Positions 4,815 through 57,067 of a stretch of DNA of 64,000 nt are shown piece by piece (positions within the stretch are counted from its first letter, which is position 1; each line of letters opens with the position of its first letter). The stretch spans positions 124,001-188,000 of the forward strand of contig NZ_JAKMCR010000004.1 in assembly GCF_022662175.1 (NCBI RefSeq), written 5' to 3'. The position numbers and the translations under genes are program-made. This DNA comes from Aestuariivivens marinum. Lineage in GTDB: Bacteria; Bacteroidota; Bacteroidia; Flavobacteriales; Flavobacteriaceae. The notes below the pieces were generated by a model. That model did not search any database and was not told where the DNA came from. It saw only the letters and a list, made by a program, of their open reading frames with translations.

Positions 4815-4839
4815 TGATAAAATAATAAAGATAAAACAG

Positions 4840-16208: not shown

Positions 16209-18536
16209 ATGAAATTAAAAGCCTTAGCATTGTTAATAAGCCTTTCAGCATTTTCACAACAAAAAAAAGAGCTGACCTTATGGTACACAGAACCCGCAAC
16301 CGATTGGATGACAGAAGCCCTGCCCATTGGAAACGGTTATATCGGTGCCATGTTTTTTGGTGGAATAAACGAGGAACACATTCAATTTTCCGAAGGCACC
16401 TTATGGTCTGGTGGACCAGATTCCAACCCAAATTACAATTTTGGAATAAAGGAAGGGGCTTATAAATATTTGCCAGAGGTAAGAGCGTTGTTAAAAGAGG
16501 GGAAAACCCGAGAAGCAGACCAATTGGTTAAAGCTAAGTTTACGGGAGCTATAGAAACAGGACCACGTTATAATAGTGAATTTGGGGATTACGGAGCACA
16601 ACAGACTATGGGTGATTTTTATATAAAATTAAATCACTCTGGCGAGCCTTCTAATTATAAAAGAAGCCTGGATTTAAAAACAGGACTAGCGGAAGTAAGC
16701 TATACAGTGAATAATGAAAACTATAAAAGGACCTATTTTGGTAATTACCCGAGTAAGGTTATGGTATATCATTTTGAAAGTTCTGTGGCAACCAATTATG
16801 AAATTCGTTTTAAAACACCCCATGCTACGATAAAAGAAGCTTTAGAGGATAGTGTTTATATCTTTCAAGGAAAGGTAGCGGATAACGGAATGGCTTTTGA
16901 AACTAGAATTTCTCTTAAAAAAACAGACGGGAACCTATCCTATAAAAATGGAGTAGTTTATGTGGAAGGTGCGAAGAATATAACACTTGAGCATACAGCA
17001 GCTACATCATTCGAGTTATCCTATCCAAAATATAAGAACCCAAGGTTTAAGAAAAAAAACATTGAAGCGTTAGATGCAGTTGCAAAATTGTCTTATGATG
17101 ATTTAATTGAAGAACATCTTTTAGATTATAGTAACCTATTTAATAGAGTTTCTTTTAGTTTGGAAGGAGAATCTTTTAGCGATGTTCCTACTAATCAGCG
17201 TCTAAAAAATTATGTTAAAGGGAATCAAGATGCGGGGCTGGAAAGCCTCTATTTTCAGTATGGCAGATATTTAATGATTTCAGGAAGCAGACCTAATACC
17301 ATGTCCATGCATTTACAGGGGAAATGGAACGATGCAACAAATCCAGCTTGGGCTGCGGATTACCATAGCAATATTAATTTGCAAATGATATACTGGCCTG
17401 CTGAGTTGACAAACCTTTCTGAATGCCATGAACCTTTTTTAGAATATATAGAAAGCCTAGTTGAACCTGGAAAATTAGCAGCAAAGGAATTTTTTAATGC
17501 CGATGGCTGGATGGTCAATACTATGTGTAATGCTTTTGGCTACACTTCACCAGGCTGGGGAATTCCCTGGGGCTTTTTTCCAGGAGGGGCAGGATGGTTT
17601 TCACAGCATTTGTGGGATCATTACGATTTTACAAATAATAAACAGTTTTTAGAGGATACAGCATATCCCATTATGAAAGAATCGGCTCGGTTTTGGATAA
17701 GTTATTTAACCGAGGATGAAAATGGAAAGTTAGTTTCTGTGCCATCATATTCTCCCGAACATGGAGGGATTTCAAGTGGAGCTTCCATGGACCATCAAAT
17801 TGCTTGGGATGTACTAAACAATTGTGTGAAAGCAGCTAAGGTATTAGGAATAGAAGATGATTTTACGCGAACAGCTTTAAGGGTAAGGGATAATATATTG
17901 CCACCACAAATTGGAAGCTGGGGACAGTTACAAGAGTGGAAAGAAGATGTAGATGACCCTAATAATAAGCACAGACATGTATCCCACCTTTATGCCTTAC
18001 ATCCGGGAAATCAAATATCAACTATAGAAACTCCAGAACTAGCTGAAGCGGTAAGAGTATCTTTAAATGCTCGTGGAGATGGTGGTAGTGGCTGGTCTAG
18101 AGCCTGGAAGATTAACTTTTGGGCACGACTTAATGATGGAAACAGAGCCCATAAAATGTTGAACCAGCTATTAACGGCAGTAGAAACAAAAACCATATCT
18201 ATGGATAATTCAGGTGGAACGTATGCTAATTTATTATGTGCCCATCCGCCGATTCAATTAGATGGAAATATGGGAGGTGTATCAGGTATCGTTGAAATGT
18301 TATTACAATCCCAGTCTGGAATTATCGAACTATTACCGGCTTTACCAGATGTTTGGGAAAGTGGCGAAATAAAAGGATTAAAGGCACGAGGTGGATTTGA
18401 AGTGGATATAAAATGGAACAACGGAAAAGTTGTTGCAGGGCTTATTAAAGGAAAACCATTTCAAAAAGGAAGAGTTAAAGTTAACAATAAAGTAAAACCC
18501 TTTAAACTTAATTCTAAAGGAACCTATAGTTTTTAA
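16209..18536 (+). CDS. GH95 alpha-L-fucosidase (or alpha-L-galactosidase), secreted
   Basis: A 775-residue canonical GH95 member. EALPIGNGYIGAMFFGG begins the N-terminal domain. The (alpha/alpha)6 barrel has DYHSNINLQMIYWPAE with the catalytic pair Asn388/Asn390, general acid Glu517 in PSYSPEHGG, and LDGNMGG with the conserved Asp. The C-terminal IIELLPALPDVW is standard. His386 precedes the Asn pair. As I recall, that His favours L-fucose over L-galactose in characterised enzymes, so alpha-L-fucosidase is the first choice. MKLKALALLISLSAFSQ is a signal peptide, so the enzyme is exported. It is the last gene of the + strand operon, followed by a strong terminator. Confidence 0.87.
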   Translation: MKLKALALLISLSAFSQQKKELTLWYTEPATDWMTEALPIGNGYIGAMFFGGINEEHIQFSEGTLWSGGPDSNPNYNFGIKEGAYKYLPEVRALLKEGKTREADQLVKAKFTGAIETGPRYNSEFGDYGAQQTMGDFYIKLNHSGEPSNYKRSLDLKTGLAEVSYTVNNENYKRTYFGNYPSKVMVYHFESSVATNYEIRFKTPHATIKEALEDSVYIFQGKVADNGMAFETRISLKKTDGNLSYKNGVVYVEGAKNITLEHTAATSFELSYPKYKNPRFKKKNIEALDAVAKLSYDDLIEEHLLDYSNLFNRVSFSLEGESFSDVPTNQRLKNYVKGNQDAGLESLYFQYGRYLMISGSRPNTMSMHLQGKWNDATNPAWAADYHSNINLQMIYWPAELTNLSECHEPFLEYIESLVEPGKLAAKEFFNADGWMVNTMCNAFGYTSPGWGIPWGFFPGGAGWFSQHLWDHYDFTNNKQFLEDTAYPIMKESARFWISYLTEDENGKLVSVPSYSPEHGGISSGASMDHQIAWDVLNNCVKAAKVLGIEDDFTRTALRVRDNILPPQIGSWGQLQEWKEDVDDPNNKHRHVSHLYALHPGNQISTIETPELAEAVRVSLNARGDGGSGWSRAWKINFWARLNDGNRAHKMLNQLLTAVETKTISMDNSGGTYANLLCAHPPIQLDGNMGGVSGIVEMLLQSQSGIIELLPALPDVWESGEIKGLKARGGFEVDIKWNNGKVVAGLIKGKPFQKGRVKVNNKVKPFKLNSKGTYSF

Positions 18537-38955: not shown

Positions 38956-39831
38956 ATGAGGAAAAAAGAAGGTTTTAAGGAAGAAAAATCGGTGATTTTA
39001 CCTAGGGGCATTCTAAAAGAATTAAAAGAAAATGAGCTTATCAATGCTTTGATGGTAACTGATATTGGGTATTATCCGAAAGCCGAAAATCATTATAGAA
39101 AGCGAAAAGGAAGTTCGCAACATATTTTAATTTATTGTATTGATGGTGAAGGTTGGGTAGAAATAGACAATAAGAGACAGGTTATTAAAAAGAACGAATA
39201 TATTATCATTTCTGCATTTACGCCTCATAGATATGGCGCCAATAATCGAAATCCATGGAGTATTTATTGGATTCATTTTACAGGCGATAAATCGCATATT
39301 TTTGTCAATCACCCTAATGAAAAGGTTGAAATTGACTTATCGGCAAATTCTAGGTTTAGGGACAGAATTTTACTTTTTGAAGAGATTTACAACAACCTCG
39401 AAATGGGCTATAGCAAAGATAATTTAGAGTATGCCAACATTTGTTTGTGGCACATGCTAGGTTCTTTGCGGTATTTGTCTCAGTTTAGAAAAATAAAGGA
39501 AATACATTCTCCCAATAGGATAGCAAAGAGTATTGCCTACATGAGAGGGCATTTAAATGAGAAATTGAGTTTGGAAACCTTGGCAGCCCATGTAGGGCTT
39601 TCGGTTGCCCAATATTGTTCTTTATTTAAAAAGAAAACCTCTAGGTCACCATTAGATTATTTAACACATTTAAAAATCCAAAAAGCCTGTGGACTACTGG
39701 ATTTTAGTGATCTAAAAATAAACGAAATAGCAAAGCAGGTAGGGTATACCGATCCTTTTTATTTTACACGTGTTTTTTCAAAGGTTATGGGGCTATCGCC
39801 AAAAAAATATAGAAATACAATAAAGGGCTAA
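38956..39831 (+). CDS. AraC family transcription regulator with cupin sensor domain
   Basis: A 291-residue regulator. Residues 40-110 form a small cupin (AraC-binding) domain with ILIYCIDGEGWVEIDNK and AFTPHRYGANNRNPWSIYW. Residues 190-288 hold the double helix-turn-helix: LSLETLAAHVGLSVAQYCS, then INEIAKQVGYTDPFYFTRVF and LSPKKYRNT. It is divergent from the MFS/sulfatase operon with 128 bases between, so control of that operon is likely. Its TAA overlaps the stop codon of the convergent phosphodiesterase gene by 3 bases. The inducer is probably a sugar. Confidence 0.88.
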   Translation: MRKKEGFKEEKSVILPRGILKELKENELINALMVTDIGYYPKAENHYRKRKGSSQHILIYCIDGEGWVEIDNKRQVIKKNEYIIISAFTPHRYGANNRNPWSIYWIHFTGDKSHIFVNHPNEKVEIDLSANSRFRDRILLFEEIYNNLEMGYSKDNLEYANICLWHMLGSLRYLSQFRKIKEIHSPNRIAKSIAYMRGHLNEKLSLETLAAHVGLSVAQYCSLFKKKTSRSPLDYLTHLKIQKACGLLDFSDLKINEIAKQVGYTDPFYFTRVFSKVMGLSPKKYRNTIKG

Positions 39832-40733
39832 TCAATTAAGGATTTTCCGTTTAATTTCCAACTTTCTTTAATTGGAATTTCTAAATGTTTTAATATTGTT
39901 GGTACAACTGAAGTTTGAGGTATTAAGGTTTCTACTTCTTGTAAGGTATTTAATTTTTTGCCATCATCACTATTATTGAAATAATCATTTCCTTCAGTAT
40001 TCATTCCAATAAATATAGTTTTTTGAGTTGTTTTTTGTGCACCATGAGAGAAGCCTTTCTCATCCCTACCATGGTCTGTTACAATAATAACCAGCCAGTC
40101 TTCAAGATATTTTTGTCTACGATGATTAACAGCAGCCATAATTTTACCTATTAAGGAGTCAACAAACTCGGTAGCTTCTGTATACATGCCTCCAAAACCA
40201 TATTCATGTCCTGCGTGATCAATAACATCCAGATGCACAAAGCTAAAATCTGGAGCGTAGTCTTCAATTTGATTGATAACTATATCTGTTGACAAATAAT
40301 CTGAACCACCAACTGTTGCAAAATTAGTTTTATACAAATCGTTTTTTAAAATTAAATTAATTTCTTTCCATGTGGCTATACTCGCTATATATGCATCTTT
40401 ATCGTGATCCCTTATAAAGCTAAATATGCTTGGTGCATTACTTAGTTTTGTTCCATCATTACTGGTTATTCCATGTTGATCACACCATACACCAGTTAAA
40501 AGGCTAATCCAGCCTGGACCACTTGAAGTAGCTTGCTCTGATTTCTCTCCATAAATACCTCCAGTAAATCCTCTTTTAATATAAAAATTATCCATATGGG
40601 GTGTATTGGCTTTTTCAATTTGACTAAATTGTAAACCATCTATGCCTATAACTAGAGATTTTTTCTTTTGTCCATAAGTGGTGAAGAATACTAAAATGAT
40701 TATAGCCTTTAGAGTTATTTGTTTTGAATTCAT
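39828..40733 (-). CDS. Secreted alkaline phosphatase superfamily (NPP-like) phosphodiesterase
   Basis: A 301-residue protein with signal peptide ending near FFTTYG-Q. LVIGIDGLQ gives the first metal-binding Asp (32). ATSSGPGWISLLTG holds the likely Ser nucleophile and HLDVIDHAGHEYG and IVTDHGRDEKGFSHGA the remaining Asp/His metal ligands. This order matches nucleotide pyrophosphatase/phosphodiesterases, not sulfatases (no CxxSR). It is the last gene of the leftward L-fucose/L-galactose operon and its stop overlaps that of the AraC gene. A phosphoester or phosphodiester on the glycan could be its target (inference). Confidence 0.8.
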   Translation of the reverse strand: MNSKQITLKAIIILVFFTTYGQKKKSLVIGIDGLQFSQIEKANTPHMDNFYIKRGFTGGIYGEKSEQATSSGPGWISLLTGVWCDQHGITSNDGTKLSNAPSIFSFIRDHDKDAYIASIATWKEINLILKNDLYKTNFATVGGSDYLSTDIVINQIEDYAPDFSFVHLDVIDHAGHEYGFGGMYTEATEFVDSLIGKIMAAVNHRRQKYLEDWLVIIVTDHGRDEKGFSHGAQKTTQKTIFIGMNTEGNDYFNNSDDGKKLNTLQEVETLIPQTSVVPTILKHLEIPIKESWKLNGKSLID

Positions 40734-40793: not shown

Positions 40794-42449
40794 TTAAGGA
40801 ATTATCTCTCCATGCAATAGTGTTGGTTTTTGTTCTGGTGAATTTATAACAATCTTAATATTGTAGGTTTCTCCTTTATTTAAAATAGCTTTAGATTTTA
40901 ATACAACAGTTGTCTTTTCGAAAGGTTTTAATTTTGGAATTTTGCCTGATCCAATTACCTTTTCTTGGTTATTTTTTAAGTATAGAATCTTTAAATCGGA
41001 TATTTTAGAGTTTACTTGCCCAAAGTTTTCAATTTCAACACTTATATCGCAACCCTCTATTTTTAAAGCTATTTTTGGCATTCTTGCCGATAGTATAGGC
41101 TCTATATAGTTTACACTAGGCAAGCGACAGTAGGCATATAATAACTCGCCTTTGATGGTTTTGCCTATTATTTTGGCAGCAAAATTATCATCGGTAAGGC
41201 CATTGCCTTTGCCTTCAAACGTAATGATGATATCATCTCCCGACTGTTCTGTTTTTATAAGTTTGGAACCTTTTCCAAAATCTACCACTTCTGGCGCTCC
41301 AAATTTTAAAGTTTTGAAGTCTATATCCGTATGGGGATTAAAATCTTTTTCAGCTTCAATTTTAACTGTGATGTTTTTGGTTTTTGCTGTAATTTGGTTT
41401 TTATTAATGATGGTAGCCAATTTTCCTTTGGTTAAAGGTATTACAATATGTTTGGAGCTGTGATTGTCGTTTTGTAAATCATTCCACTTAATGGTGTCAA
41501 TAACAGCAAAATGAGCTTGGGTAGCTCTGCCGTATTTGTCTTGCAAAACTTTTATTCTTTCATATTTAAACCATTTTTCTTGGGTGCTATCTTCATAATT
41601 GCTAATACCAGGAGCATAAGCTTCACCTGGGTCTATTTTCCAATTTACTCCATCTTTAGACCTAAGTTTGTAAGCAATCCTTCCTAACCAATCATTAACA
41701 ATCATATGGTATTGAATATTGGTTTTCCAGATTACAGGATCTTCAAACTCACCTTCGACAGGTGGATAAACACTCTTTTCAGTGACTTGGTTATATGGAG
41801 AGGTTCCAGTTTTACTAAACCAAATGCCTCCACCTCGGCATACCATAATAATTGATCCGTCTTCCCTTTTGGCAAAACTTAGATTGCTCAACCCTTCAAT
41901 TATTTTTCGATCACGTTTATCAAAATCAAATTTTTTGTATTTCCATGGGCCATTCAGGGAATTGGAGATGTAATGGCCATCAATAACATAAACAATGTAT
42001 CTACCATCTTTAAGTTGAAATATTTCAGGGTTATGTCCAGGTCCAACAGTATCCTTTATTTTATAAGGTCCAAAGGAGTTTTCAGAAACCGTATGAAAAA
42101 CAGTAGATTTACTCCAGTACATATGTCCTTTCGGAGAATTTTCCGGCCAACCACAAACAAAAAGGTGATATTTATTATCTTTTCCCAATAGTGCATTTCC
42201 TCCCCAATAGGAATTGATGCTATCTTCTATACCGTTATCTACATATCTCGGGATTACATTTTTTGCCCCCCATGTATCGTAGGTTAAGGTTCCTTGAACA
42301 GGCATAGGTAAAAAGCGATCCATAAACTTTCCTCCAAAAGTTAAACTATCCCATGATTTTGGACGTTCCCTTTCTTTTATTTGAGAGTTTATCTTATGAT
42401 TAAGGGTACACAGAATTAGTAATGTCAATAGGTAATACTTTAATCTCAT
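40794..42449 (-). CDS. Beta-propeller (GH43/GH117-like) glycosidase, secreted
   Basis: A 551-residue protein with signal peptide ending KINS-Q. The first 330 residues show blade-like repeats of a five-bladed propeller: SYWGGNALLGKDNKYHLFVCGW, NPEIFQLKDGRYIVYVIDGHY, GEFEDPVIW and YHMIVNDW, with acidic residues as in GH43-like enzymes. The last 200 residues are beta-sandwich. I cannot place it in a specific family. It follows the L-fuconate dehydratase gene by 32 bases, so it probably releases a sugar used by the same operon. Confidence 0.65.
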   Translation of the reverse strand: MRLKYYLLTLLILCTLNHKINSQIKERERPKSWDSLTFGGKFMDRFLPMPVQGTLTYDTWGAKNVIPRYVDNGIEDSINSYWGGNALLGKDNKYHLFVCGWPENSPKGHMYWSKSTVFHTVSENSFGPYKIKDTVGPGHNPEIFQLKDGRYIVYVIDGHYISNSLNGPWKYKKFDFDKRDRKIIEGLSNLSFAKREDGSIIMVCRGGGIWFSKTGTSPYNQVTEKSVYPPVEGEFEDPVIWKTNIQYHMIVNDWLGRIAYKLRSKDGVNWKIDPGEAYAPGISNYEDSTQEKWFKYERIKVLQDKYGRATQAHFAVIDTIKWNDLQNDNHSSKHIVIPLTKGKLATIINKNQITAKTKNITVKIEAEKDFNPHTDIDFKTLKFGAPEVVDFGKGSKLIKTEQSGDDIIITFEGKGNGLTDDNFAAKIIGKTIKGELLYAYCRLPSVNYIEPILSARMPKIALKIEGCDISVEIENFGQVNSKISDLKILYLKNNQEKVIGSGKIPKLKPFEKTTVVLKSKAILNKGETYNIKIVINSPEQKPTLLHGEIIP

Positions 42450-42481: not shown

Positions 42482-43723
42482 TTAGATGTTTTTTAAATCG
42501 GAACTCATTCCGGGGTTATCAGGTATTTGATAGTGTCCATTTTTAATACTTACAGGGTGCTTAAAATACGATTGTAAATGAGGGATATGCTCTAAGAACA
42601 ATGCTTTATGTTCCATTCCAATATGGTTGTAAAGCACTAAGTGCTGATGGATTTGCCCCATATCACCTACATGGGGCACAACAGGAACATTGAATTTTTT
42701 AGACATTAAACTAATGGTTAAAAATTCTGAAACACCACCAACCCTTACCGCGTCAACTTGATTAAAACTCATGCAGCCCGATTGTAGAAAATTTTTAAAG
42801 ATGATTTTATTTGGAACATGTTCACCTAAAGCCAATTTTATTGGTTTAATTTCTTTAGCTAATGCAACATGGGCAGTTACATCATCAGGGTGCGTGGGTT
42901 CCTCAATCCAATATGGGTTCATGCCTTTTAATGCTTTTCCCATATGTATGGCTTCTGGTAAATGCCATTGTTGGTTTACATCAAGCATAATTGTAGCTTC
43001 TTCTCCTGCTGTTTCTCTAACTAGATAAGCCCTTCTAATATCACGCTCGTGATCTTTCGAGCCAACTTTCAGCTTCATGGCCGTAAATCCATGGTCCATG
43101 GCTTTTTTAATATTGTCTTTTACTTTTTCGTCACTATAATTAAACCAACCAATGGAGGTATCGTAACCAGGGTAACCTTTTAAAAGAATAGCTTCTCTAT
43201 TTTGTTTTGTTAAAGAAGATTGTTTTAACATAGAAATGGCTTCATCACGAGTTAAAATATCTTCTAGGTAACTCAAGTCTAAGGTATTTACAATATCATA
43301 AGGTGATAGCTCAAGGAGTAACTTCCACAAAGGTAAGTCTCTTGATTTTGCCCACAAATCAAAGCATGCATTTACCACAGAAGCTAGGGCTAAATGCACC
43401 ACACCTTTATGGGGACCCAACCATCTAAAATTTGGGTCTTCAGCCATGGTTTTGTAGGTTTCACCAAAGTTGGACATTAACTCATTAATTTCTTTGCCTT
43501 CTATATGCCTGGCCAAATATTTAATAGCTTCACAAACTAAATTATTGCCTGTCCCTAATGTGAAAGCTAATCCAATACCTTCCAGATTGGTGTCTGTTTT
43601 CAATTTGCATACCGCATAAGCATAAATAGGTGTGGTATGTATAGCATCAGATCCTGCGCCATTGCCAAGCTCAAATCTAGAATCATTAACCACTATATTT
43701 TTTATAAAAACTGTTTTATTCAT
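42482..43723 (-). CDS. L-fuconate dehydratase (enolase superfamily)
   Basis: A 413-residue enolase-superfamily enzyme. The N-terminal cap and the long stretch around SYLEDILTRDEAISML match bacterial and human (ENOSF1) fuconate dehydratases as remembered. Active-site residues are all present: Lys217 and Lys219 (KLK), Asp248, Glu274 and Glu301 as magnesium ligands, Asp324-His351 as the general base dyad, and Glu378. The reaction is L-fuconate to 2-keto-3-deoxy-L-fuconate. Characterised homologues also accept L-galactonate, relevant because L-galactonate enzymes are encoded nearby. It lies in the operon with transporter, mutarotase and Gfo/Idh oxidoreductase. Confidence 0.87.
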   Translation of the reverse strand: MNKTVFIKNIVVNDSRFELGNGAGSDAIHTTPIYAYAVCKLKTDTNLEGIGLAFTLGTGNNLVCEAIKYLARHIEGKEINELMSNFGETYKTMAEDPNFRWLGPHKGVVHLALASVVNACFDLWAKSRDLPLWKLLLELSPYDIVNTLDLSYLEDILTRDEAISMLKQSSLTKQNREAILLKGYPGYDTSIGWFNYSDEKVKDNIKKAMDHGFTAMKLKVGSKDHERDIRRAYLVRETAGEEATIMLDVNQQWHLPEAIHMGKALKGMNPYWIEEPTHPDDVTAHVALAKEIKPIKLALGEHVPNKIIFKNFLQSGCMSFNQVDAVRVGGVSEFLTISLMSKKFNVPVVPHVGDMGQIHQHLVLYNHIGMEHKALFLEHIPHLQSYFKHPVSIKNGHYQIPDNPGMSSDLKNI

Positions 43724-43744
43724 TTTCGTTTATTAAAGATGTTT

Positions 43745-44821
43745 TTATTTTATTTCAGAAAAGGCAACTCCTCCTTTTTCACTCGATTGGTAAGCTGCTT
43801 CAACAAGTTTCATAGTCTCATAACAATCTTCTGTACTGTGCAATAATGGAATGGTTGGATCTAAATATGAGTTCTGTACGCCGGCCATCGTTCCTACAAA
43901 AGCTTCGGGGAACCATGAGCCTTTTAAAGGAAGCTCTTTCCATTTAGGAGCCTTGTCTTCTAAGTTTATATATTCAAATGTATCTGGAACGCCTTTAGGA
44001 TAATCCATAGATAGGCCAATTCTTATTTTAATGGCGCCTTTAGTTCCTTCAAATTTCACGTAGGACTGTTGTTTTTCCAACCCGAATTCATGGCCATGAT
44101 TGGTAATCACCCTAGCTTGCAGGCAATCGTCATAATCTAAAATCATGGTTGTCCGGGTTTGTGCCAATGCTTTCATTTTAGGGTGTTTAATGGAGCTTGC
44201 ATATACCTTTTTAGGATTACCTAAAAAGGACCGTATCATATCTAAATAGTGAATGCTATGATATAAAATTTCCATCCTTGGTAAATCAAAAAGAAAATCC
44301 CATAAATGCCAAGGCGTGAAGACACACACCATAACTTCTACATCATATACGTCACCTAAAACACCTTTTTTTATTAAATCTCTTGCAGCCATTATATAGG
44401 GTGCATAGCGTAATTGAAAATTAATTCCGGAAACGAATTTTTTACGCCTGCATATATCCAATATTTGTTTGGCTTCTTCTAAGGTTTCACCCATTGGTTT
44501 CTGTATCAATACGGCCGAACCTTCTGGAATTTGTTCTAGAATTTCACAGTTATGATTTGCAGGCAAGGCAATGTCATATACTGCATTACATGATTTGGCA
44601 TCAACTATTAATTCTGGAATACTGTTATAGACTTTTTCTACAAATGGAAACTCATTTTTTAAAGCTTGTGCCTTCTCTTGGGTTCTGTTGTAAATGCCCT
44701 TTACAGGAAACCCTGTCAATTGATATGCAGGTAAATGGGCATCTTTAACAATGCCACCCGCACCAATAATGACTATGGGAAGGGGAGTATTTGGCAGTGT
44801 AACGTCTTGGTTTATATTCAT
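43745..44821 (-). CDS. Gfo/Idh/MocA family NAD(P)-dependent oxidoreductase
   Basis: A 358-residue oxidoreductase if read from ATG at 44821, which overlaps the stop of the upstream gene as TAATG, a typical coupling arrangement. A further ATG at 44848 would add 9 residues. PIVIIGAGGIVKDAHLPAY is the Rossmann dinucleotide motif and VLIQKPMGETLEEAKQIL corresponds to the family EKP motif. Its position between mutarotase and L-fuconate dehydratase makes it the best local candidate for the sugar 1-dehydrogenase forming the lactone. That is inference; the family has many substrates. Confidence 0.75.
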   Translation of the reverse strand: MNINQDVTLPNTPLPIVIIGAGGIVKDAHLPAYQLTGFPVKGIYNRTQEKAQALKNEFPFVEKVYNSIPELIVDAKSCNAVYDIALPANHNCEILEQIPEGSAVLIQKPMGETLEEAKQILDICRRKKFVSGINFQLRYAPYIMAARDLIKKGVLGDVYDVEVMVCVFTPWHLWDFLFDLPRMEILYHSIHYLDMIRSFLGNPKKVYASSIKHPKMKALAQTRTTMILDYDDCLQARVITNHGHEFGLEKQQSYVKFEGTKGAIKIRIGLSMDYPKGVPDTFEYINLEDKAPKWKELPLKGSWFPEAFVGTMAGVQNSYLDPTIPLLHSTEDCYETMKLVEAAYQSSEKGGVAFSEIK

Positions 44822-45450
44822 TACAATAAAGGTGTCATAATTTGCCATTTTTCCATGGCTTTACTATCGGGATTCACTTTTTGGAACTTGGCTACATAGG
44901 ATTGCCACTCTCGTTCCTTTGGTAGATTGGACCATTGTTTTCCGTCCTTTTCTAAATCAAAATCCAAATGGGTGTCCATAATTATAAAGGCGCTATAATT
45001 GTAGAGATATAATCCCATGTCCAATATACCAATAGTATCCATATTTGTAATGATTTGAGGCCATATTTTATCTTTTCTATGTATCTGTTTGTATTCAGAA
45101 ATTAATATGGGGTCATTTTTTAATTCTAGACTCATAACAATTCTTTTATGGTCTGATGTTGTATTATCTAGTGCTTCTTTTTTAAAAATACAATTTAATT
45201 TACTACTGATTTTAATTATTCTATCTAACTCTTGTAAACTTTTTAGAAGTTGTTGAAACTGTCTTATAGTATTCGAATCCTGTTTTAAAGCCTGAATAAT
45301 AATAAAATAAACAGATTGGAGCTTATAGATCTCAAGTTTTATAGAATTATTGTCGAAACTTATGCTATTGCATTTGGATATTAGTTCTGAATCACTGCAA
45401 TTCCCTTTGTTTTCCAAAACAAAACATAATTGATTGGTAGACATATTCAT
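44821..45450 (-). CDS. L-rhamnose/L-fucose mutarotase-type protein with degenerate extra N-terminal half
   Basis: About 209 residues from ATG at 45450 (the longer frame starts with TTG at 45462; ATG at 45444 is another choice). The C-terminal 110 residues match the RhaM ferredoxin-like fold: RIVMSLELKNDPILISEYKQIH with the catalytic His124, IWPQI, and LYLYNYSAFIIMDTHLDFD. The N-terminal 90 residues show a weaker copy of the same strand pattern (QLCFVLEN and LEIYKLQSVYFIIIQAL) without the His. In this operon it should speed interconversion of L-fucose or L-galactose anomers before oxidation. Confidence 0.75.
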   Translation of the reverse strand: MNMSTNQLCFVLENKGNCSDSELISKCNSISFDNNSIKLEIYKLQSVYFIIIQALKQDSNTIRQFQQLLKSLQELDRIIKISSKLNCIFKKEALDNTTSDHKRIVMSLELKNDPILISEYKQIHRKDKIWPQIITNMDTIGILDMGLYLYNYSAFIIMDTHLDFDLEKDGKQWSNLPKEREWQSYVAKFQKVNPDSKAMEKWQIMTPLL

Positions 45451-45458
45451 AGCTTTAA

Positions 45459-47057
45459 TCAATAGAAGGTAGCATAAATGATTAACATGACAATAACCAA
45501 TACAATACTCAAGGTATTGACTGTTTTTGATGGTGATTTTATCTTTAAATAAAAGGTTTCAGGTATGCTTTGTTTAGATTTATCAATATAAGAAACGCTA
45601 AAATATATGAAAGAAGAAATTATAAAGTACAAATAGGTTTGTCGTAACCAATTGATGCCTAGTCCCTCTGGGTTTGAAATATAATTTTCAATACCATTAA
45701 TAGGTATGTATTTTTCTATAATAAAGATAGTTCCTGCAAATAAACTCCCTAGGCATAAAGTCCAAAAGGATGCATTGCTTGTACCTTTTTTAGATAAGAT
45801 ACCCCAAAGAAATACAACCACAATTGAAGGAGCAAAAATACTGAACATTTGATTGATTAAGGCAAAAATACTTCCCAAATCCCCTAAAAAGGGAGACCAA
45901 GCAACAGCAAGGACAAGGACAGTGGCACTGGTTATTTTACCAATTTGTATCTTTGATTTGTCGGAGAGATGAGGTTTGATTTTATCAAACACATCAAAAA
46001 CGATAAGTGTAGAACAGCTATTTAGAGCAGCAGCCACAGAGCTCATTACGGCAGCTAAAAGTGCCGCAATCATTAGTCCTTTGAGTCCAATAGGCATTAA
46101 ATTCATGATAAGTACAGGTAAAACATTTTTTGTTTCACTACCAATTTCCTCTTGAAATAGTGCAAATGCTAAAATTCCTGGAACGACCATGATAAAAACG
46201 GGCAGGATTTTTAGAAAACCAGCGAACAATGCTCCTAATTTTGCTTGTTTTTCAGATTTTGCACCCAAAGCTCGTTGGACAATCGTTTGATCTGTGCACC
46301 AATACCAGATGCCCAATACCAAATGCCCAAAAAGCATATCTAAAAAGGTAAAACCTTTTTTATTGGCATCAAAACTAACCGCTTTTAATCTGTCTGGATC
46401 TACAGCTTGCTTTAAGCTTTCATAAGAATTAATACCAATATCTGGAAGTTCATAAATAGCTAAAAGGGTAATGGTTATAGAGCCAGCAATCAATATAATG
46501 GTTTGTACAGATTCTGTTACAACCACTGAAACCAAACCACCTATAATGGTATATATCCCTGTTGCAATAGCAATGATAATAATGGATATTAGAATGTTTA
46601 TACCAAATAAATTTTCTATTACTACAGCTCCAGCATAAAAACTAACACCTATGTGCATGAATAATGCAGCTAAAATGCTAAATATTGCAAGTATGATTCG
46701 TGACCGTCCGTCATATCTTTTTTCAAGAAATTCTGGTAGAGTAGATATTTTGGTTCTTATATAAAATGGAATAAAAATAAATGCCAACAGAATTAGCTCA
46801 AACGAAGAAAACCACTCAAAATTACCCCAAACAATACCGTCTAAAAAACCAGACTCGGCTAATCCAACAAGATGTACTGTTGATATATTGGAAGCAAATA
46901 AAGAAGCCCCTATAACGGACCAAGTTAAAGTTTTGTTTGCGAGAAAATATCCAGAACTTGTGTTTTTTTGTTTACGAGATGCCCATAACCCGATTAATAT
47001 TATAACTATAAAATATACACAGATTATTATAGCATCTATACCTGAAACTAACCCCAT
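45459..47057 (-). CDS. Sodium:solute symporter (SSS family), probable L-fucose/L-galactose importer
   Basis: A 532-residue transporter with about 14 hydrophobic helices. ATG at 47057 is preferred over the TTG 18 bases upstream. Sodium-symporter landmarks include SASRKQ-like loop 1 (GLWASRKQKNTSSGYFLA), SVIGASLFASNISTVHLVG, FIPFYIRTKISTLPEFLEKRY and LGIWYWCTDQTIVQRALGA. It is the first gene of the leftward operon, whose other members are a mutarotase, an oxidoreductase and L-fuconate dehydratase, so the cargo is probably L-fucose or L-galactose (context). Confidence 0.86.
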   Translation of the reverse strand: MGLVSGIDAIIICVYFIVIILIGLWASRKQKNTSSGYFLANKTLTWSVIGASLFASNISTVHLVGLAESGFLDGIVWGNFEWFSSFELILLAFIFIPFYIRTKISTLPEFLEKRYDGRSRIILAIFSILAALFMHIGVSFYAGAVVIENLFGINILISIIIIAIATGIYTIIGGLVSVVVTESVQTIILIAGSITITLLAIYELPDIGINSYESLKQAVDPDRLKAVSFDANKKGFTFLDMLFGHLVLGIWYWCTDQTIVQRALGAKSEKQAKLGALFAGFLKILPVFIMVVPGILAFALFQEEIGSETKNVLPVLIMNLMPIGLKGLMIAALLAAVMSSVAAALNSCSTLIVFDVFDKIKPHLSDKSKIQIGKITSATVLVLAVAWSPFLGDLGSIFALINQMFSIFAPSIVVVFLWGILSKKGTSNASFWTLCLGSLFAGTIFIIEKYIPINGIENYISNPEGLGINWLRQTYLYFIISSFIYFSVSYIDKSKQSIPETFYLKIKSPSKTVNTLSIVLVIVMLIIYATFY

Positions 47058-47221
47058 AAATTTGAAAAAATTCAAATATAAAAATATTATTTAAGTGTAA
47101 AAAAATATTTTAATTTAAAGTGCTTATTGTTTATATTGCGCCTTCAATATTTATAGGTTGTTTAGAAGAATATTAGGTTAAAAAACATCTGTAATAATTA
47201 ATGAATTTAATCACCAAATAA

Positions 47222-50344
<3,123 letters not shown>

Positions 50345-50386
50345 GTACTCTTTATGTTAAATTTTATAAAATAATTATTGGCTTAA

Positions 50387-51397
50387 ATGAAGTATATAGT
50401 TTGTGAAAAACCTGGTGAATTTCTTTTAAAAGAAAAGGAAGTTCCAACTAGGAAAGAAAACGAGGCCTTGTTGCAGATTAATAAAGTGGGTATCTGTGGT
50501 ACAGATTTACATGCCTATGCCGGTAACCAAGCGTTTTTCACATATCCTAGAATTTTGGGACACGAGTTAGCATCTGAAGTTTTAGAGATAGGAGAAAACC
50601 CCAAGGGAATTAAAAAAGGGGATAAAGTCGTAGTAATGCCTTATGTGAGTTGTGGCAAATGTATTGCCTGTAGTAATGGAAAGACTAATTGCTGTACTAA
50701 TATAACTGTTTTGGGGGTGCATGGTGATGGAGGTATGCAAGAACAAATTACTGTACCATACGATATCTTGTTGCCAGCTAATAATTTGTCAGACAACCAG
50801 ATGGCTATAGTAGAACCCTTAGCTATTGGGGCACATGCCATAAGAAGGGCAGGTATAAAAGCAGGGGAGACCGTAGCTGTAGTGGGGTGTGGCCCCATAG
50901 GAATAGGTATTATGAAGTTAGCACAAATTGCAGGTGCAAAAGTTATTGCTATTGATATGAATAAGCAACGGTTAGAATATGCTAAAGAGAAAATAGGAGT
51001 TGAATATATTGTTGAGGCAGGAGAAAATACAGTTAATGAGGTTTCTGAGATAACTAATGGCGATTTATGTACGACGGTGTTTGATGCTTCAGGGAATAAG
51101 TTTGCATTAGAGGCATGTCCTGATTACATGTCTCATGGAGGCCGATTTGTGTTGGTAGGACTATCCAAAGGAGAATTGACCTATATCCATCCTAAAATAC
51201 ATGCAAAGGAAATGACTTTAATGTGTAGCCGTAATGCCACGGTTGAAGATTTTGAGCATGTTATTGATGTGTTAGATCAATTTCCAACCGATTCATTCAT
51301 TACACACAATGTGGCATTTACAGAAATGATAGACCATTTCGATAGTTGGTTAAAACCAGAAACAGGTGTTATAAAAGCTACTGTAGATTTTAATTAA
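50387..51397 (+). CDS. lgoD: Zinc-dependent L-galactonate 5-dehydrogenase (LgoD/YjjN-like)
   Basis: A 336-residue medium-chain dehydrogenase. KVGICGTDLHAYAGNQAFF, YPRILGHE and ITVLGVHGDGGMQEQ closely follow E. coli YjjN (LgoD) as I remember it. Catalytic zinc ligands are Cys37, His59 and Glu60; structural zinc ligands are Cys89, Cys92, Cys95 and Cys103; VAVVGCGPIGIG is the NAD motif. The expected reaction is L-galactonate to D-tagaturonate. The next gene encodes tagaturonate reductase, which supports the call. A related L-gulonate or threonine-type dehydrogenase is less likely. Confidence 0.8.
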   Translation: MKYIVCEKPGEFLLKEKEVPTRKENEALLQINKVGICGTDLHAYAGNQAFFTYPRILGHELASEVLEIGENPKGIKKGDKVVVMPYVSCGKCIACSNGKTNCCTNITVLGVHGDGGMQEQITVPYDILLPANNLSDNQMAIVEPLAIGAHAIRRAGIKAGETVAVVGCGPIGIGIMKLAQIAGAKVIAIDMNKQRLEYAKEKIGVEYIVEAGENTVNEVSEITNGDLCTTVFDASGNKFALEACPDYMSHGGRFVLVGLSKGELTYIHPKIHAKEMTLMCSRNATVEDFEHVIDVLDQFPTDSFITHNVAFTEMIDHFDSWLKPETGVIKATVDFN

Positions 51398-51479
51398 TAG
51401 TAAAGGTTTTCAAATTTCTAATTTATAAACAGCTATAATTTAGCTAATAACTTGCTTAAAAGAAAGAGGTATTCAAAAC

Positions 51480-52934
51480 ATGAAGACATTAAATAGGGAT
51501 AGAGAAAATGTTTTAACTTATACCGAAAGAATCATACAATTTGGAGAAGGTAACTTTTTAAGAGCCTTTGCCAATTGGATGATCCATGTAATGAATAAAA
51601 AGGCAGAGTTTGATGCAGGAGTGGTTGTTGTACAGCCCATAAAGGAAGGATTGGTAAAAATGTTGAACGACCAAGATGGTCTGTACACACTATATCTTAA
51701 CGGACTTAAAAACGGAAAGGCTATTAGCGAACATGAAATAATTGATTGTATCCATAGAGGTATTAATCCGTATAAAGATTATAGTGCTTTTTTGTTGCTT
51801 GCCCAAAATCCAGATATTCGCTTTGTATTATCCAATACTACAGAGGCTGGAATAGCTTATAATGCAAACGATAAATTAGACGATGCACCTCAGGAAAGTT
51901 TTCCTGGAAAATTAACCGCTTTGTTGTATAAAAGGTTTAAAGCTTTTGATGGAGCTGCAAACAAAGGATTAATTGTTATCCCGTGTGAACTTATCGATAG
52001 AAATGGTGATAATTTAAAGAGAATAGTATTGCAATATGCCAATGACTGGAATCTAGGAATCGCTTTTGTAGATTGGATAGAGAACAGTAATATTTTTTGC
52101 AATACATTGGTAGATAGAATTGTTCCAGGATACCCAAAGGGTAAAATAGACAACGTAATAAAAGAATTGGGATACAAAGATAATTTAGTGGTAGAAGGGG
52201 AGCAGTTTCATTTATGGGTCATTGAAGGTCCAGAATCTATAAAGAAGGAAATTCCGGCTGAGATTTGTGGTTTGAATATTGTTTTTACTGATAATATGGA
52301 GCCATATAGGACGCGTAAGGTACGTATTTTGAACGGTGCCCATACCACACTTGTACCTGTGGGTTATTTATATGGTATCGATAAGGTTCGAGAGTCCATA
52401 GAAGACCATATAGTTGGCAAATTTTTAAAAGATGCTATTTTTGAAGAGATTTGTCCAACACTGGATTTACCAAAAGCTGAACTCAATCAGTTTGCAAATG
52501 ACGTATTGGATCGTTTTCTAAATCCTTACCTAGAGCATGAATTGATGAGTATATCCTTGAATTCTATTTCTAAATTTAAAACAAGGGTACTACCCTCTAT
52601 TCTTGAGTATATTAAGCGAAATGGAGAATTGCCTCGTAGGTTATTATTTTCGTTATCAGCATTAATTGCGTTCTATAAGGGTGAAAGGAACAATGATGTT
52701 ATTCCGTTAAAAGATTCCCAATCTGTTTTAGAATTCTTTAAGTTACAATGGGCTAAAGGACATATTCCAACAATTGTTAAGGCAACACTTGAAAATCTTG
52801 AGTTTTGGGGAATGGATTTAACAAAAGTTGATGGACTGCAAAAAGCGGTCACTAATGGTTTAGAGCGTATTGTAAATGATGGGATGCACAAATCTCTTGA
52901 ATCATTAACAAGTGAGCATATCCAAAATATTTAA
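51480..52934 (+). CDS. uxaB: Tagaturonate reductase (altronate oxidoreductase)
   Basis: A 484-residue member of the mannitol dehydrogenase family that aligns along its length with E. coli UxaB from memory. Both begin MKTLNR, and ERIIQFGEGNFLRAF, RFVLSNTTEAGIAY, CELIDRNGDNLKRIVL and FCNTLVDRIVPGYP match. The catalytic Lys280, Asn285 and His288 (KVRILNGAHT) are present. It reduces D-tagaturonate to D-altronate with NADH in the cytoplasm. No uronate isomerase (UxaC) or altronate dehydratase (UxaA) is in the window, so the tagaturonate probably comes from L-galactonate via the preceding gene. Confidence 0.92.
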   Translation: MKTLNRDRENVLTYTERIIQFGEGNFLRAFANWMIHVMNKKAEFDAGVVVVQPIKEGLVKMLNDQDGLYTLYLNGLKNGKAISEHEIIDCIHRGINPYKDYSAFLLLAQNPDIRFVLSNTTEAGIAYNANDKLDDAPQESFPGKLTALLYKRFKAFDGAANKGLIVIPCELIDRNGDNLKRIVLQYANDWNLGIAFVDWIENSNIFCNTLVDRIVPGYPKGKIDNVIKELGYKDNLVVEGEQFHLWVIEGPESIKKEIPAEICGLNIVFTDNMEPYRTRKVRILNGAHTTLVPVGYLYGIDKVRESIEDHIVGKFLKDAIFEEICPTLDLPKAELNQFANDVLDRFLNPYLEHELMSISLNSISKFKTRVLPSILEYIKRNGELPRRLLFSLSALIAFYKGERNNDVIPLKDSQSVLEFFKLQWAKGHIPTIVKATLENLEFWGMDLTKVDGLQKAVTNGLERIVNDGMHKSLESLTSEHIQNI

Positions 52935-53007: not shown

Positions 53008-56000
53008 TTAATTGTTTACTAAAACAATCTTAGAAAATGTATTACTTTTTAAGATGTAAATACCAGAGGTTATTGAATTAGGAAATGTAAGTTTGGTACT
53101 AGAGTTGGATTCGCTAAAAGTTGAATTTAATATTGGTATTGATTTTCCTAAAACATCAAAAAGTTTAAACTCATCTAAAGCCTTTGTATTTGTTATATAG
53201 ATTTCTTTATCTATTACTGGATTGGGGAATATTTTAAATTCGATATCAGAAGGTTCAGTTGTTTCGTGGCTAAAATATGGTAATGCAAAATAATAAGCGT
53301 TAATACCTACACTTTCTCCTATTATTCTGCCAGGAATATCATCAGCAGGAGGGTGAATACCACCCCAAATTCTTGATAAACTGGTTTGATCTGAAGCATC
53401 TCTGTATGTTGCCCACTGTAAGGTAATATCTACTGAGGGCCCTTTTTCAAAAGCTAAAAATTCATTCTTTTTAGCTACAAATTCACCCATACCTCCAGGA
53501 AAGAATTCATCACCTGTAATAAGCGTTAATACCTCTGCTGCTGCTCTAGAAAAAGTTGAGTGCCCAGAAACATACCCAGCAAAGGGAGGTGTAACAAATG
53601 ATGGTCTTTGATAGGGCCACCAATTTTCAGCTAAGATCCAATCAACACCAGCTACATCAGTTTTAGAATTAATTATATAATCATGTCCTTTCCATGCCAA
53701 TACTTTAATTTTTCCAATATTTTCATTATTGTGAAAAGCCAGTTGATCGTTTTCACCAACTAACTCGATAAACCCTTCTTTTAAAGGAATACCCCCAATA
53801 TGGTAATTTGGTAAGTTTTCGTCTGTACTTTGACCCAAGCTACTCATATAACGAATTGCTGAAATAGGTCTGATGTAATCATACCAACCTTTAATTCCCC
53901 AAGCTGAAATGGCGGAATCGTGCATGGCACCGGAGAGAATAAAATAAGATTTGATATCCCATTCTAAAGGCTCCAAAACATCACCTTTGCCATTAAACTT
54001 TTTTATAAGCAGAGGATGATCATTCACATAATTTAAGATAGTAAACCAATGTCCTGGAGGTGTCTCGGAATCGGGTCCATCTGCCCAAAACTCTGCCAAC
54101 ACTCTGGCATAATCAGCCCTTGGAACTAATTGCGGTGAGTAAGGCTTACCTGTTATAGGATTTATGGAATGTCCTTGTCCAATATCACCCCCTTCTAATT
54201 CTTTGTAATAAGAGGGTAAATCGGCAAAATCATCTGAAAAAATATTGATATCTATGTTTCCGATATTGCCTGGTGAGATATCCCATATGACACCATCGGT
54301 TGGATCTAAATGGGAGCTCCAAAGCGATACCAATGAAAAGTTCCATTTGTATTGTTCGCTGGATTCGTTATTAGAATAAATGTTTAATTGAGGTGGTGTT
54401 CCCGGGTCATGATATACATGATAGTTATTACCATCCCTTTGAAAAGTCAGTTTATCTTCTTCTTGTAAAGCAAAAGGTGATACATTACCCCATTCGGGAC
54501 CCAAAAACTTGGGTGTAGATCCATTAATTAAATTACCACTTTGGTCAATAAACGTATTAAAAGTAAGCGGTTGCCAACGGTTAGGGTCATTTATCCCATC
54601 ACTCAACCCAGAAACGGCTAAATCTAAAGGGGGATTTACGGGTTCGTAATAGCTATATTCATAATCTAAAGCTTCTTGTGATCCATCACTATATCCATAA
54701 TCAATAACAGTTTTGGCTATATAATTGCCCAATGCAGCGGCATTGCCAGATATATAGTCTATGGAGGTTTCTTCTAAATTGTATCCTAATTGAGACATAA
54801 TTAAGTCAAACCGCGATAAACTTTCTTCAGCTCCTGGAGAATTTAAAAACCTATGTTTCAATAATCTATATGCAGTATAACTTAATGCTTTGTCAACAGA
54901 GTTGTTTCCAAATTCGTTGGGTGTAAATCCTTTAAATTCATTTTTGAATCCATTAACCGTATTACCAATTAAATAAGGCTTTGCTTTGTTGGTGTATATT
55001 GCCCAAGTGTCAAATAACGCCATGGAAGTATGAAACAAATTTCTGGCATGTACATTGGGTCTTGCATAATCATTTCTTATGGCTTCCAATAGTGCTTCAT
55101 TCCATAAACGTGCAATAGAAATATCATTATGAGCTCTTGTTATATTTAATGATATCTCCAGTTCAGAACTTTGACTATTGCAAAGTTCACTTATTTCAGT
55201 AACTATAACTTTTCCCGTGGCTTCTAGCCCCCATTTTACACTAATTTGACCAGTCCCTTGACCAGAGATAATCTCACCTCCTTCAACACGCCAAGATGCT
55301 GTTGAATTACTTCCTAAAGAATATGTATAATTGGCTATTTGATGAAATCCCGATTGTGTAGGTCCAGATATTAAACTGGAATTTAAATATTCACAACTAT
55401 TATCATGTATTGTAGCTTCTGGATTGTAGTTACAAGAAAGAGGATCTGTACAACCAACTATTTTAATGCTTGGCCTAATATCTGTAATTTCAAATCCCTG
55501 GTTTTCAGTAAATTTTATGGTTGTATTTGATTCAAAATGCTGATATGACTCTAAAATTCCAGAAGGCCATTTGACCAAGATTTCATTTATGTTTGAGATG
55601 TCTCCTAAGCCAAAATGAATTGGTTTTAAACTTTGTGATAAAAAACTAATACCATTGTAATAACGTTTAAAGTCTCCTTTATCCGTTTTAACAGTTATAA
55701 TAGTTCCTATGGCGTCTTTGTTGGAAATGGTTCCTTCTAATGAAATTTTCAACCAATTAAGGTTAGATTCCTCAAACATATTTATGGTCTTATTTTCGTA
55801 AAAGAAAATTTCCTTGTCGTTATTGGTCACTAAAATATCTAGGTCGCCATCATTATCATAATCAAATGTTGTACTGCTTATACTTTCTCCAGCTTCATTT
55901 AAATTTGAAGCTTGTGAAGCATCTATAAACCCACCACCCATTTCTTCAAGTTCATTTTTAAAATATTTATTAAACTGTGGCCCTGTATTATTAAAGCCGT

Positions 56001-57024
56001 TTACAACAAAAAGGTCTTCATCACCATCGAGGTCAAAATCTTCAAAAGCAGTATCCCATGCCCATCCAGTATTTTTAATGTTTTCTTCTTCAGCAACATT
56101 AGTGAATGTTAAATTTCCATTGTTTTTAAATAATGCATTTGAATTAATAGTGGTAACATATATGTCGAATAAACCATCTTTATTATAATCTCCCATGGCC
56201 ACTCCCATATCATTGAATGAGTAATCCAACCCATATGATGCTGCAGCTTCGGTTACTGTAGCTCCAGCATTGTTAATGAAAAGGTCATTTGGAGTCTGAA
56301 AATCATTTGTGATATAAATATCTATCCAACCATCTTCATTGAAATCAAAAGGAAATGCTAGATAGGATCTTTCAGGAGAGTTGTTTAGTCCAAATGCTTC
56401 GGTAACATTATTGAAAGTTCCATCACCATTATTAATGTAGAATGTGTTTTGTCCACACAGTTCCCAATCGGAAACAAATAAATCAAGATAAGAATCATTA
56501 TTAAAGTCGAACCAAGAAGCACTCGTATTCCAACATCCGTTCTGCCTATCAATGCCAGCTTCTATAGTAGTTTCAACAAAAGTACCATTTCCTTCATTGT
56601 GAAATAGTTGCACTTTATACAAATAGGTTAGAAATAAATCGGGATAACCATCATTGTCGTAGTCTCCCCAAGAAACACCATATTTAACACCATCTAGCGA
56701 TGGGTTTTCTTCACTGTATTCACTTGCTGGAAATAAATTTGTCAGGCCCGATTCTAAGGTAACATCCGTGAATGTTCCATTATCATTATTTCGAAATAGT
56801 TTGCTATGGGTTTTTTCTATACCAGAGAGATCTTTTCCTTTTGCAACAACAAGAATATCCAGATCGTTATCACCATCATAGTCTGCAACTGCAGCGCCAT
56901 TGTTTTCTTCAAGTACTTTTAATCCAGTTAAATGATCAATACGTTCAAAAACTTGTGAAAAAACAAGATTCTGACTACAAATTGACCATAAAAGAAAATT
57001 AAAAACAATTTGCTTAAATCGCAT
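53008..57024 (-). CDS. FG-GAP/ASPIC repeat protein fused to vanadium haloperoxidase-type domain, T9SS secreted
   Basis: A 1338-residue protein from ATG at 57024 (the longer frame begins with TTG). After a signal peptide (ending LVFS-Q), residues 45-415 carry FG-GAP/VCBS repeats of the pattern DYDGDNDLDILV. Residues 435-510 resemble the ASPIC/UnbV domain, followed by a Cys-rich CTDPLSCNYNPEA insert and an Ig-like stretch. Residues 630-1250 form a PAP2/vanadium haloperoxidase domain with all signature residues: Lys1045-x6-Arg1052-Pro, Ser1153-Gly-His1155, and Arg1218 with His1224 and Asp1228 in SRIWGGIHPPAD. The last 75 residues are a T9SS sorting domain. Haloperoxidase or acid phosphatase activity is possible; the metal is not shown by sequence. 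Confidence 0.85.
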   Translation of the reverse strand: MRFKQIVFNFLLWSICSQNLVFSQVFERIDHLTGLKVLEENNGAAVADYDGDNDLDILVVAKGKDLSGIEKTHSKLFRNNDNGTFTDVTLESGLTNLFPASEYSEENPSLDGVKYGVSWGDYDNDGYPDLFLTYLYKVQLFHNEGNGTFVETTIEAGIDRQNGCWNTSASWFDFNNDSYLDLFVSDWELCGQNTFYINNGDGTFNNVTEAFGLNNSPERSYLAFPFDFNEDGWIDIYITNDFQTPNDLFINNAGATVTEAAASYGLDYSFNDMGVAMGDYNKDGLFDIYVTTINSNALFKNNGNLTFTNVAEEENIKNTGWAWDTAFEDFDLDGDEDLFVVNGFNNTGPQFNKYFKNELEEMGGGFIDASQASNLNEAGESISSTTFDYDNDGDLDILVTNNDKEIFFYENKTINMFEESNLNWLKISLEGTISNKDAIGTIITVKTDKGDFKRYYNGISFLSQSLKPIHFGLGDISNINEILVKWPSGILESYQHFESNTTIKFTENQGFEITDIRPSIKIVGCTDPLSCNYNPEATIHDNSCEYLNSSLISGPTQSGFHQIANYTYSLGSNSTASWRVEGGEIISGQGTGQISVKWGLEATGKVIVTEISELCNSQSSELEISLNITRAHNDISIARLWNEALLEAIRNDYARPNVHARNLFHTSMALFDTWAIYTNKAKPYLIGNTVNGFKNEFKGFTPNEFGNNSVDKALSYTAYRLLKHRFLNSPGAEESLSRFDLIMSQLGYNLEETSIDYISGNAAALGNYIAKTVIDYGYSDGSQEALDYEYSYYEPVNPPLDLAVSGLSDGINDPNRWQPLTFNTFIDQSGNLINGSTPKFLGPEWGNVSPFALQEEDKLTFQRDGNNYHVYHDPGTPPQLNIYSNNESSEQYKWNFSLVSLWSSHLDPTDGVIWDISPGNIGNIDINIFSDDFADLPSYYKELEGGDIGQGHSINPITGKPYSPQLVPRADYARVLAEFWADGPDSETPPGHWFTILNYVNDHPLLIKKFNGKGDVLEPLEWDIKSYFILSGAMHDSAISAWGIKGWYDYIRPISAIRYMSSLGQSTDENLPNYHIGGIPLKEGFIELVGENDQLAFHNNENIGKIKVLAWKGHDYIINSKTDVAGVDWILAENWWPYQRPSFVTPPFAGYVSGHSTFSRAAAEVLTLITGDEFFPGGMGEFVAKKNEFLAFEKGPSVDITLQWATYRDASDQTSLSRIWGGIHPPADDIPGRIIGESVGINAYYFALPYFSHETTEPSDIEFKIFPNPVIDKEIYITNTKALDEFKLFDVLGKSIPILNSTFSESNSSTKLTFPNSITSGIYILKSNTFSKIVLVNN

Positions 57025-57067
57025 TGTAAACAACTAGCAATTATTAATGCTAAATTAATTTTTAGAA

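Follow-up and report, generated by a model that had tools for sequence, protein, structure and literature searches.

Two divergent sugar-catabolic operons in the window

We analyzed a 64,000-nucleotide stretch (the window) of the genome of Aestuariivivens marinum (Flavobacteriaceae), spanning positions 124,001 to 188,000 of contig NZ_JAKMCR010000004.1, here called C8. Two operons predicted to act on L-fucose-like sugars and on L-galactonate diverge within it. The rightward unit (forward strand) encodes a LacZ-type GH2 beta-galactosidase (47234–50344; NF052611, 1072.5 bits, cut-off 999), an LgoD-like zinc-type L-galactonate 5-dehydrogenase (50387–51397), and the D-tagaturonate reductase UxaB (51480–52934; NF002969, 684.5 bits, cut-off 359). 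The leftward unit (reverse strand) begins with a sodium/solute symporter of the SSS family (open reading frame 45459–47075; PF00474, 257.5 bits; TIGR00813, 338.5 bits); read from its ATG (45459–47057), it is a probable sugar importer. There follow a two-domain RhaM-type mutarotase (44821–45462; PF05336 on residues 107–210), a Gfo/Idh/MocA dehydrogenase (hereafter Gfo; 43745–44848; PF01408) that is a candidate sugar 1-dehydrogenase, and a FucD-type dehydratase (42482–43723).

An earlier note on this DNA had named these seven genes, and all lie where it placed them and are what it called them. The divergent gap of 176 bases that it reported (47058–47233) is exact once the symporter starts at ATG 47057 and the GH2 gene at 47234. 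It ended the leftward operon at the dehydratase; the four genes stand, but the unit very probably continues through a gene for a five-bladed beta-propeller, glycoside-hydrolase-like protein (40794–42449, reverse strand), 32 bases beyond the dehydratase gene, and a last leftward gene for a type I phosphodiesterase-superfamily protein (39828–40733, reverse strand; PF01663, 67.8 bits).

The leftward unit begins with a conserved cassette that has a distinct dehydratase

Among solved structures, the dehydratase is closest to human ENOSF1 (4a35, 361 bits) and Xanthomonas FucD (XcFucD; 1yey, 332 bits), and the catalytic positions K217, K219, D248, E274, E301, D324, and H351 (window numbering) are kept relative to both. 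We take their roles (KxK motif, metal-ligand Asp/Glu, and His/Asp dyad) to be those established for XcFucD. After the catalytic His, the window protein has the loop PHVGDMG--QIHQH, two residues shorter, in place of the classic PHAGGVGLCEYVQH. The classic form, PHAGGVGLCE(Y/L)VQH, is absent from the window dehydratase and present in all 12 classic sequences, whereas PHVGDMG--Q[IL]HQH occurs in at least 84 of the 85 subfamily sequences (some genomes counted twice). Because of this loop, we file the window dehydratase in a distinct subfamily, FucD2, rather than with classic FucD. The FucD sequences of the family likewise form two groups, the classic ones being 41–46% and the window-type ones 67–78% identical to the window protein. 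Classic genes usually lie in operons with AraC, ketodeoxyfuconate (KDF) dehydrogenase, FAH hydrolase, lactonase, short-chain dehydrogenase/reductase (SDR), FucP, and RhaM genes; window-type genes lie in SSS-(RhaM)-Gfo-FucD cassettes, in which genes resembling sulfatases or fucosidases are often interspersed.

A genome-wide scan found the FucD2 type at 80 loci across Bacteroidota. Gfo-type genes accompany it at up to 34 of these (both Gfo types counted) and close SSS relatives at 28; at loci of soil genera, other dehydrogenases and transporters replace Gfo and SSS. These contexts indicate that SSS-mutarotase-Gfo-FucD2 is a separately conserved Bacteroidota cassette. No close solved relative was found for the Gfo dehydrogenase. 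The mutarotase matches PF05336 in its C-terminal half only (62.9 bits, cut-off 23.4), and in its predicted structure (predicted local distance difference test score, pLDDT, 83.9) this half aligns with the L-fucose mutarotase 7byu (Z 12.9, root-mean-square deviation [rmsd] 1.7, 97 residues), tied with the L-rhamnose mutarotase 1x8d (Z 12.2). The N-terminal half appears in the predicted fold as a degenerate ferredoxin-like domain, giving the protein the look of an internal pseudo-dimer; it is hardly conserved among relatives, and no similarity between the two halves is detectable at the sequence level.

The interpretation of the leftward set as an oxidative route of the L-fucose type, also proposed in the earlier note, is backed by a complete operon at a relative locus (L169), where SSS, mutarotase, GH29-like genes, FucD2, Gfo, KDF dehydrogenase, FAH hydrolase, lactonase, and LutABC-type genes lie in one run. 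This operon is the best evidence that the substrate of the FucD2 cassette is L-fucose or close to it. It is also the single one of the 80 FucD2 loci with both KDF dehydrogenase and FAH hydrolase in the fetched flanks; in the window genome, both are on contig C5. Most likely, the cassette would import L-fucose or a close analogue and oxidize it to a 2-keto-3-deoxy acid, to be processed further by the C5-encoded KDF dehydrogenase and FAH hydrolase.

A competing explanation is that FucD2 and Gfo act on another sugar (e.g., L-galactose, D-arabinose, or a modified fucose), making the leftward unit a parallel or competing route. The loop that separates FucD2 from classic FucD speaks for it, as do three genomes (G050, G162, and G203) that carry both types and the complete L-fucose operon already present on C5 of the window genome. 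We nevertheless regard it as doubtful, given that L169 joins FucD2 and Gfo with KDF dehydrogenase, FAH hydrolase, and lactonase, and that fucosidase-like and sulfatase-like genes are often neighbors of FucD2. As a less likely possibility, FucD2, Gfo, and SSS may constitute a second oxidative route for L-fucose-like sugars in Bacteroidota, its range shifted by the loop (possibly to L-galactose or modified fucose), which in this genome would be co-expressed with the L-galactonate operon from the divergent promoter of the latter.

The rightward unit belongs to a widespread type of predicted L-galactonate operon

The LgoD-like protein is 41% identical to Escherichia coli LgoD over its full length (337 columns, 285 bits), and the catalytic and structural zinc motifs of medium-chain dehydrogenases (GICGTD, GHE, and C-X2-C-X2-C-X6-C) can be read in its sequence. 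The gene directly after it encodes a UxaB with 49% identity to the E. coli protein over 482 amino acids, the sole UxaB match in its own genome. Here and below, genome-wide presence and absence refer to family searches of the window genome and to the stretches around the matches.

Homologues of LgoD occur in 27 of 149 genomes of the family. At the 29 LgoD loci fetched, the companions are a cog3618-type lactonase (23 loci), FucP (19), UxaB and an SDR (18 each), RhaM (17), and UxaA (15), usually in the order LgoD-UxaA-UxaB-lactonase-SDR-FucP-RhaM; at one locus (L063), the downstream genes read as 2-keto-3-deoxygluconate (KDG) kinase and 2-keto-3-deoxy-6-phosphogluconate (KDPG) aldolase. This gene set matches the needs of an L-galactose route via L-galactonate, tagaturonate, altronate, and KDG. 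Given these usual companions of LgoD homologues, conversion of L-galactonate through tagaturonate to altronate is the best reading of the window pair; the earlier note had made the same proposal, which thus gains the backing of conserved operon context in other genera. LgoD would oxidize L-galactonate at C5 to D-tagaturonate, which UxaB would reduce to D-altronate. In lactonase and SDR trees, the LgoD-linked copies stand apart from those of L-fucose operons, with one weakly placed lactonase exception (L077).

A second kind of LgoD locus was also observed. At L056, L068, L072, L074, L077, and L078, LgoD lies with KDF dehydrogenase, FAH hydrolase, and one SDR/lactonase set, with UxaB not nearby, and two genomes (G061 and G134) have two LgoD copies, one per kind of locus. 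These loci would be either dual L-fucose/L-galactose operons or the sign of an unrecognized LgoD role.

Most remaining pathway enzymes are encoded elsewhere in the genome

The lactonase, UxaA-type, and KDF enzymes, placed outside the window in the earlier note, are found elsewhere in the same genome. Contig C5 carries a complete L-fucose operon. The lactonase (best of three PF04909 matches; the cog3618 protein whose search had been proposed) and the SDR found in the window genome are encoded on C5, and each is of the fucose type. Genes for KDG kinase and KDPG aldolase are on C12. The proposed search for UxaA returned two PF04295 proteins, one on C5 and a short one at C8:83852, but no UxaA of the LgoD type; the C5 protein falls together with UxaA from the fucose-type operon of a relative (L072). 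On this evidence, altronate dehydration is the weakest point of the route, with the C5 UxaA and the short C8:83852 protein as the remaining candidates. Because the genome's own lactonase and SDR are of the fucose type, the first L-galactose steps, if the strain grows on this sugar, are probably borrowed from the L-fucose enzymes on C5. For oxidation of the sugar, opening of the lactone, dehydration of altronate, and the KDG kinase and KDPG aldolase steps, the route would depend on genes outside the locus.

Two clusters upstream of the window on C8 contain related genes. At C8:82953–86368, the short UxaA-like protein, flanked by genes for an RraA-like protein and a FucP-like transporter, may represent a further dehydratase acting on a fucose-like acid. 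At C8:56889–66922, two CaiB/BaiF-like, MaoC-like, Gfo, two binding-protein-like, medium-chain dehydrogenase/reductase (MDR), and RhaT-like transporter genes were recognized by eye; the Gfo is 51% identical to that of the window, and a similar cluster lies beside LgoD in L077.

The two units meet at a promoter shared with a cassette-free relative

The intergenic region contains an element for leftward transcription, TATATTTG (TAnnTTTG-type), at about 47072–47079. In the genome with the closest LgoD relative (G006, 94% identity), a phosphodiesterase-propeller pair faces GH2-LgoD-UxaB directly, without the cassette (locus L050); a GH2 homologue (89%) directly precedes LgoD-UxaB, and a phosphodiesterase homologue (72%) lies beside the propeller gene. 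The intergenic DNA of G006 aligns with that of the window from 47070 rightward, the match ending 13 bases before the symporter ATG, and the TATATTTG element is identical in the two. The local alignment score was 106, compared to a maximum of 41 for mononucleotide shuffles, which are lenient for AT-rich DNA, and to 16–34 for the SSS upstream DNA of 35 other loci, the better control being these unrelated regions. In G006, UxaB is followed by a gene for a 442-amino-acid, apparently saccharopine-dehydrogenase-like protein, which we considered unrelated.

Given that G006 has no cassette and that its divergent promoter matches that of the window to a point 13 bases short of the importer gene, the cassette was most likely inserted at the divergent promoter. 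It would have entered between this promoter and the propeller/phosphodiesterase pair and taken over the leftward promoter facing GH2-LgoD-UxaB. Insertion behind an existing leftward promoter is the simplest account of the comparison and the most likely direction of the event, relative to loss in G006. Shared control of both units is plausible from the same promoter comparison. Building on the gene identities, conserved contexts, and promoter homology described above, we consider it probable, with moderate confidence, that two catabolic modules, independent of each other, have come to lie side by side here, i.e., an L-galactonate unit and a FucD2 cassette at its divergent promoter.

Four points weigh against this account. 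The FucD2 loop differs from that of characterized FucD, so the substrate may differ. The cassette-free arrangement is seen in one relative only, and ancestral presence followed by loss there is an alternative. The two PF04295 matches of the window genome include no LgoD-type UxaA. In addition, Campylobacter jejuni FucX is an example of a fucose SDR that works poorly with L-galactose (PMC6946681).

The earlier note had instead seen the two operons as a purpose-built pair, forming one functional unit for glycans with alpha-L-fucose and alpha-L-galactose in which sugar oxidation is shared and the routes branch at the aldonate. Shared first steps with such a branch do appear in some relatives (the combined LgoD and KDF dehydrogenase/FAH loci listed above) and are published for Halomonas (PMC5507952); the divergent promoter with its retained leftward element and the GH95-like genes upstream also fit. 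The pairing itself did not hold up: the cassette is absent from the G006 LgoD locus, neither LgoD nor UxaB was seen in the fetched flanks (up to 9 kb) of any of the 80 other FucD2 loci, and the LgoD and FucD2 units are not a conserved pair. Moreover, the leftward dehydrogenase is of the Gfo type, whereas LgoD operons use an SDR and a lactonase. The three GH95-like enzymes of the earlier note fared unevenly, with one clear GH95 (16209–18536), one divergent GH95 (7388–9844), and a third protein (4804–7359) that is only distantly GH95-like and has a DUF5703 domain. At the O6-contact position of 4UFC, the clear GH95 has the His of AfcA; the divergent one has Thr, but with Asp at the N372 position (altered catalytic Asn). 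This Thr/His difference was proposed as a marker for L-galactose versus fucose (PMC4491172) and later contradicted (PMC8245568). We dropped it as a guide to specificity, XacAfc95 having Thr yet being fucose-specific. As GH95 specificity is unreadable from sequence, a locus built for both sugars is unproven, and taken together we find the single-unit explanation unlikely.

A role of UxaB (and LgoD) in the use of D-galacturonate or a different uronate, in place of L-galactonate, is very improbable. It would fit the UxaC gene on this contig (C8:43412) and the lack of a second UxaB match in the genome; against it, the galacturonate route has no step for LgoD, and a genome of the same genus (G219) has a separate UxaC-KDG kinase-KDPG aldolase-TRAP-UxaB-UxaA locus whose UxaB is only 50% identical. 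From that separate locus and LgoD, galacturonate as the sole role of UxaB is disfavored; a double role in L-galactonate and uronate use is possible.

Neighboring genes and glycan context

The surrounding island contains GH2, GH5, GH92, GH95, GH123, and sulfatase genes. The secreted propeller protein has no Pfam match, but its model (pLDDT 87.2) shows a five-bladed beta-propeller, best matched by GH159 7zei (Z 19.5, 257 residues, rmsd 3.0), GH43-type 3qz4 (Z 19.4), and GH117 4u6b (Z 19.3, 261 residues, rmsd 3.2). The predicted structure places the protein in the fold group of GH43, GH62, GH117, and GH159, at group level only since these score within about one Z unit, and further families may also fit. 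Its gene is found next to LgoD-UxaB again in L063 and L155, and in L050 it faces GH2-LgoD. Propeller relatives of about 815 amino acids were seen in other genomes (L123–L131); an internal TAA was flagged in two of these.

Beyond the leftward unit lies an AraC-type regulator (38956–39831, forward strand; PF00165, PF02311), relatives of which (37–41%) occur next to the dehydratase gene at loci of Mucilaginibacter, Pedobacter, and Dyadobacter. Downstream of UxaB, a 1341-amino-acid protein (53008–57033) has, by eye, a repeat-rich N-terminus and a haloperoxidase-like SGHST region; a similarly long protein at C8:205622–209668 starts alike.

Relation to known systems and significance

With identities of 41% (LgoD) and 49% (UxaB) over nearly full length, the rightward unit is expected to follow the reaction order of the E. 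coli L-galactonate route (LgoD/YjjN, UxaB, UxaA). Unlike in E. coli, LgoT and LgoR are absent beside the unit, a GH2 beta-galactosidase stands in front, and an LgoD-linked UxaA was not found in the genome. Catabolism of L-galactose through tagaturonate is known in Phocaeicola vulgatus (BVU_0219, BVU_0222) and Luteolibacter (lguABCDEF; PMC12632266), with the same chemistry from L-galactose through L-galactonate, tagaturonate, and altronate to KDG. In those organisms, oxidation relies on an L-galactose dehydrogenase grouping with plant GALDH, whereas an SDR and a cog3618 lactonase are the candidates here and in relatives.

Genes for L-fuconate and L-galactonate catabolism share one locus in Halomonas and Chromohalobacter, with lgoD, uxaA, and uxaB beside the L-fuconate genes, which the authors read as co-localization and likely co-regulation of shared pathways (PMC5507952). 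The concept of a combined L-fucose/L-galactonate locus is thus already published and the chemistry largely known. Those loci are proteobacterial with sugar-acid TRAP importers; in the window, two Bacteroidota modules meet at a divergent promoter without adjoining KDF genes. FucD2 shares family, length, and catalytic positions with Xanthomonas campestris FucD and human ENOSF1, but its loop is two residues shorter and it forms a separate subfamily. The C5 operon, itself separate from the window, resembles the C. jejuni fuc locus (PMC6946681) in its UxaA-type dehydratase, SDR, mutarotase, and FucP, with KDF dehydrogenase and FAH hydrolase plus LutABC-type genes where C. jejuni has DapA. As far as our searches show, three things are new: FucD2 as a subfamily accompanied by Gfo, an L-galactose operon predicted across the family, and the probable capture of a promoter.

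Glycans of algae and plants contain L-galactose and L-fucose, sugars whose breakdown routes in marine Bacteroidota are poorly assigned. Our analysis predicts an L-galactose operon (SDR, lactonase, LgoD, UxaB, UxaA, FucP, and mutarotase) for many genera. It also defines a FucD2 subfamily recognizable by its loop, alongside a Gfo-family protein that is a candidate L-fucose dehydrogenase, and it offers a case in which the apparent arrival of a catabolic cassette in the divergent promoter of another operon can be traced.

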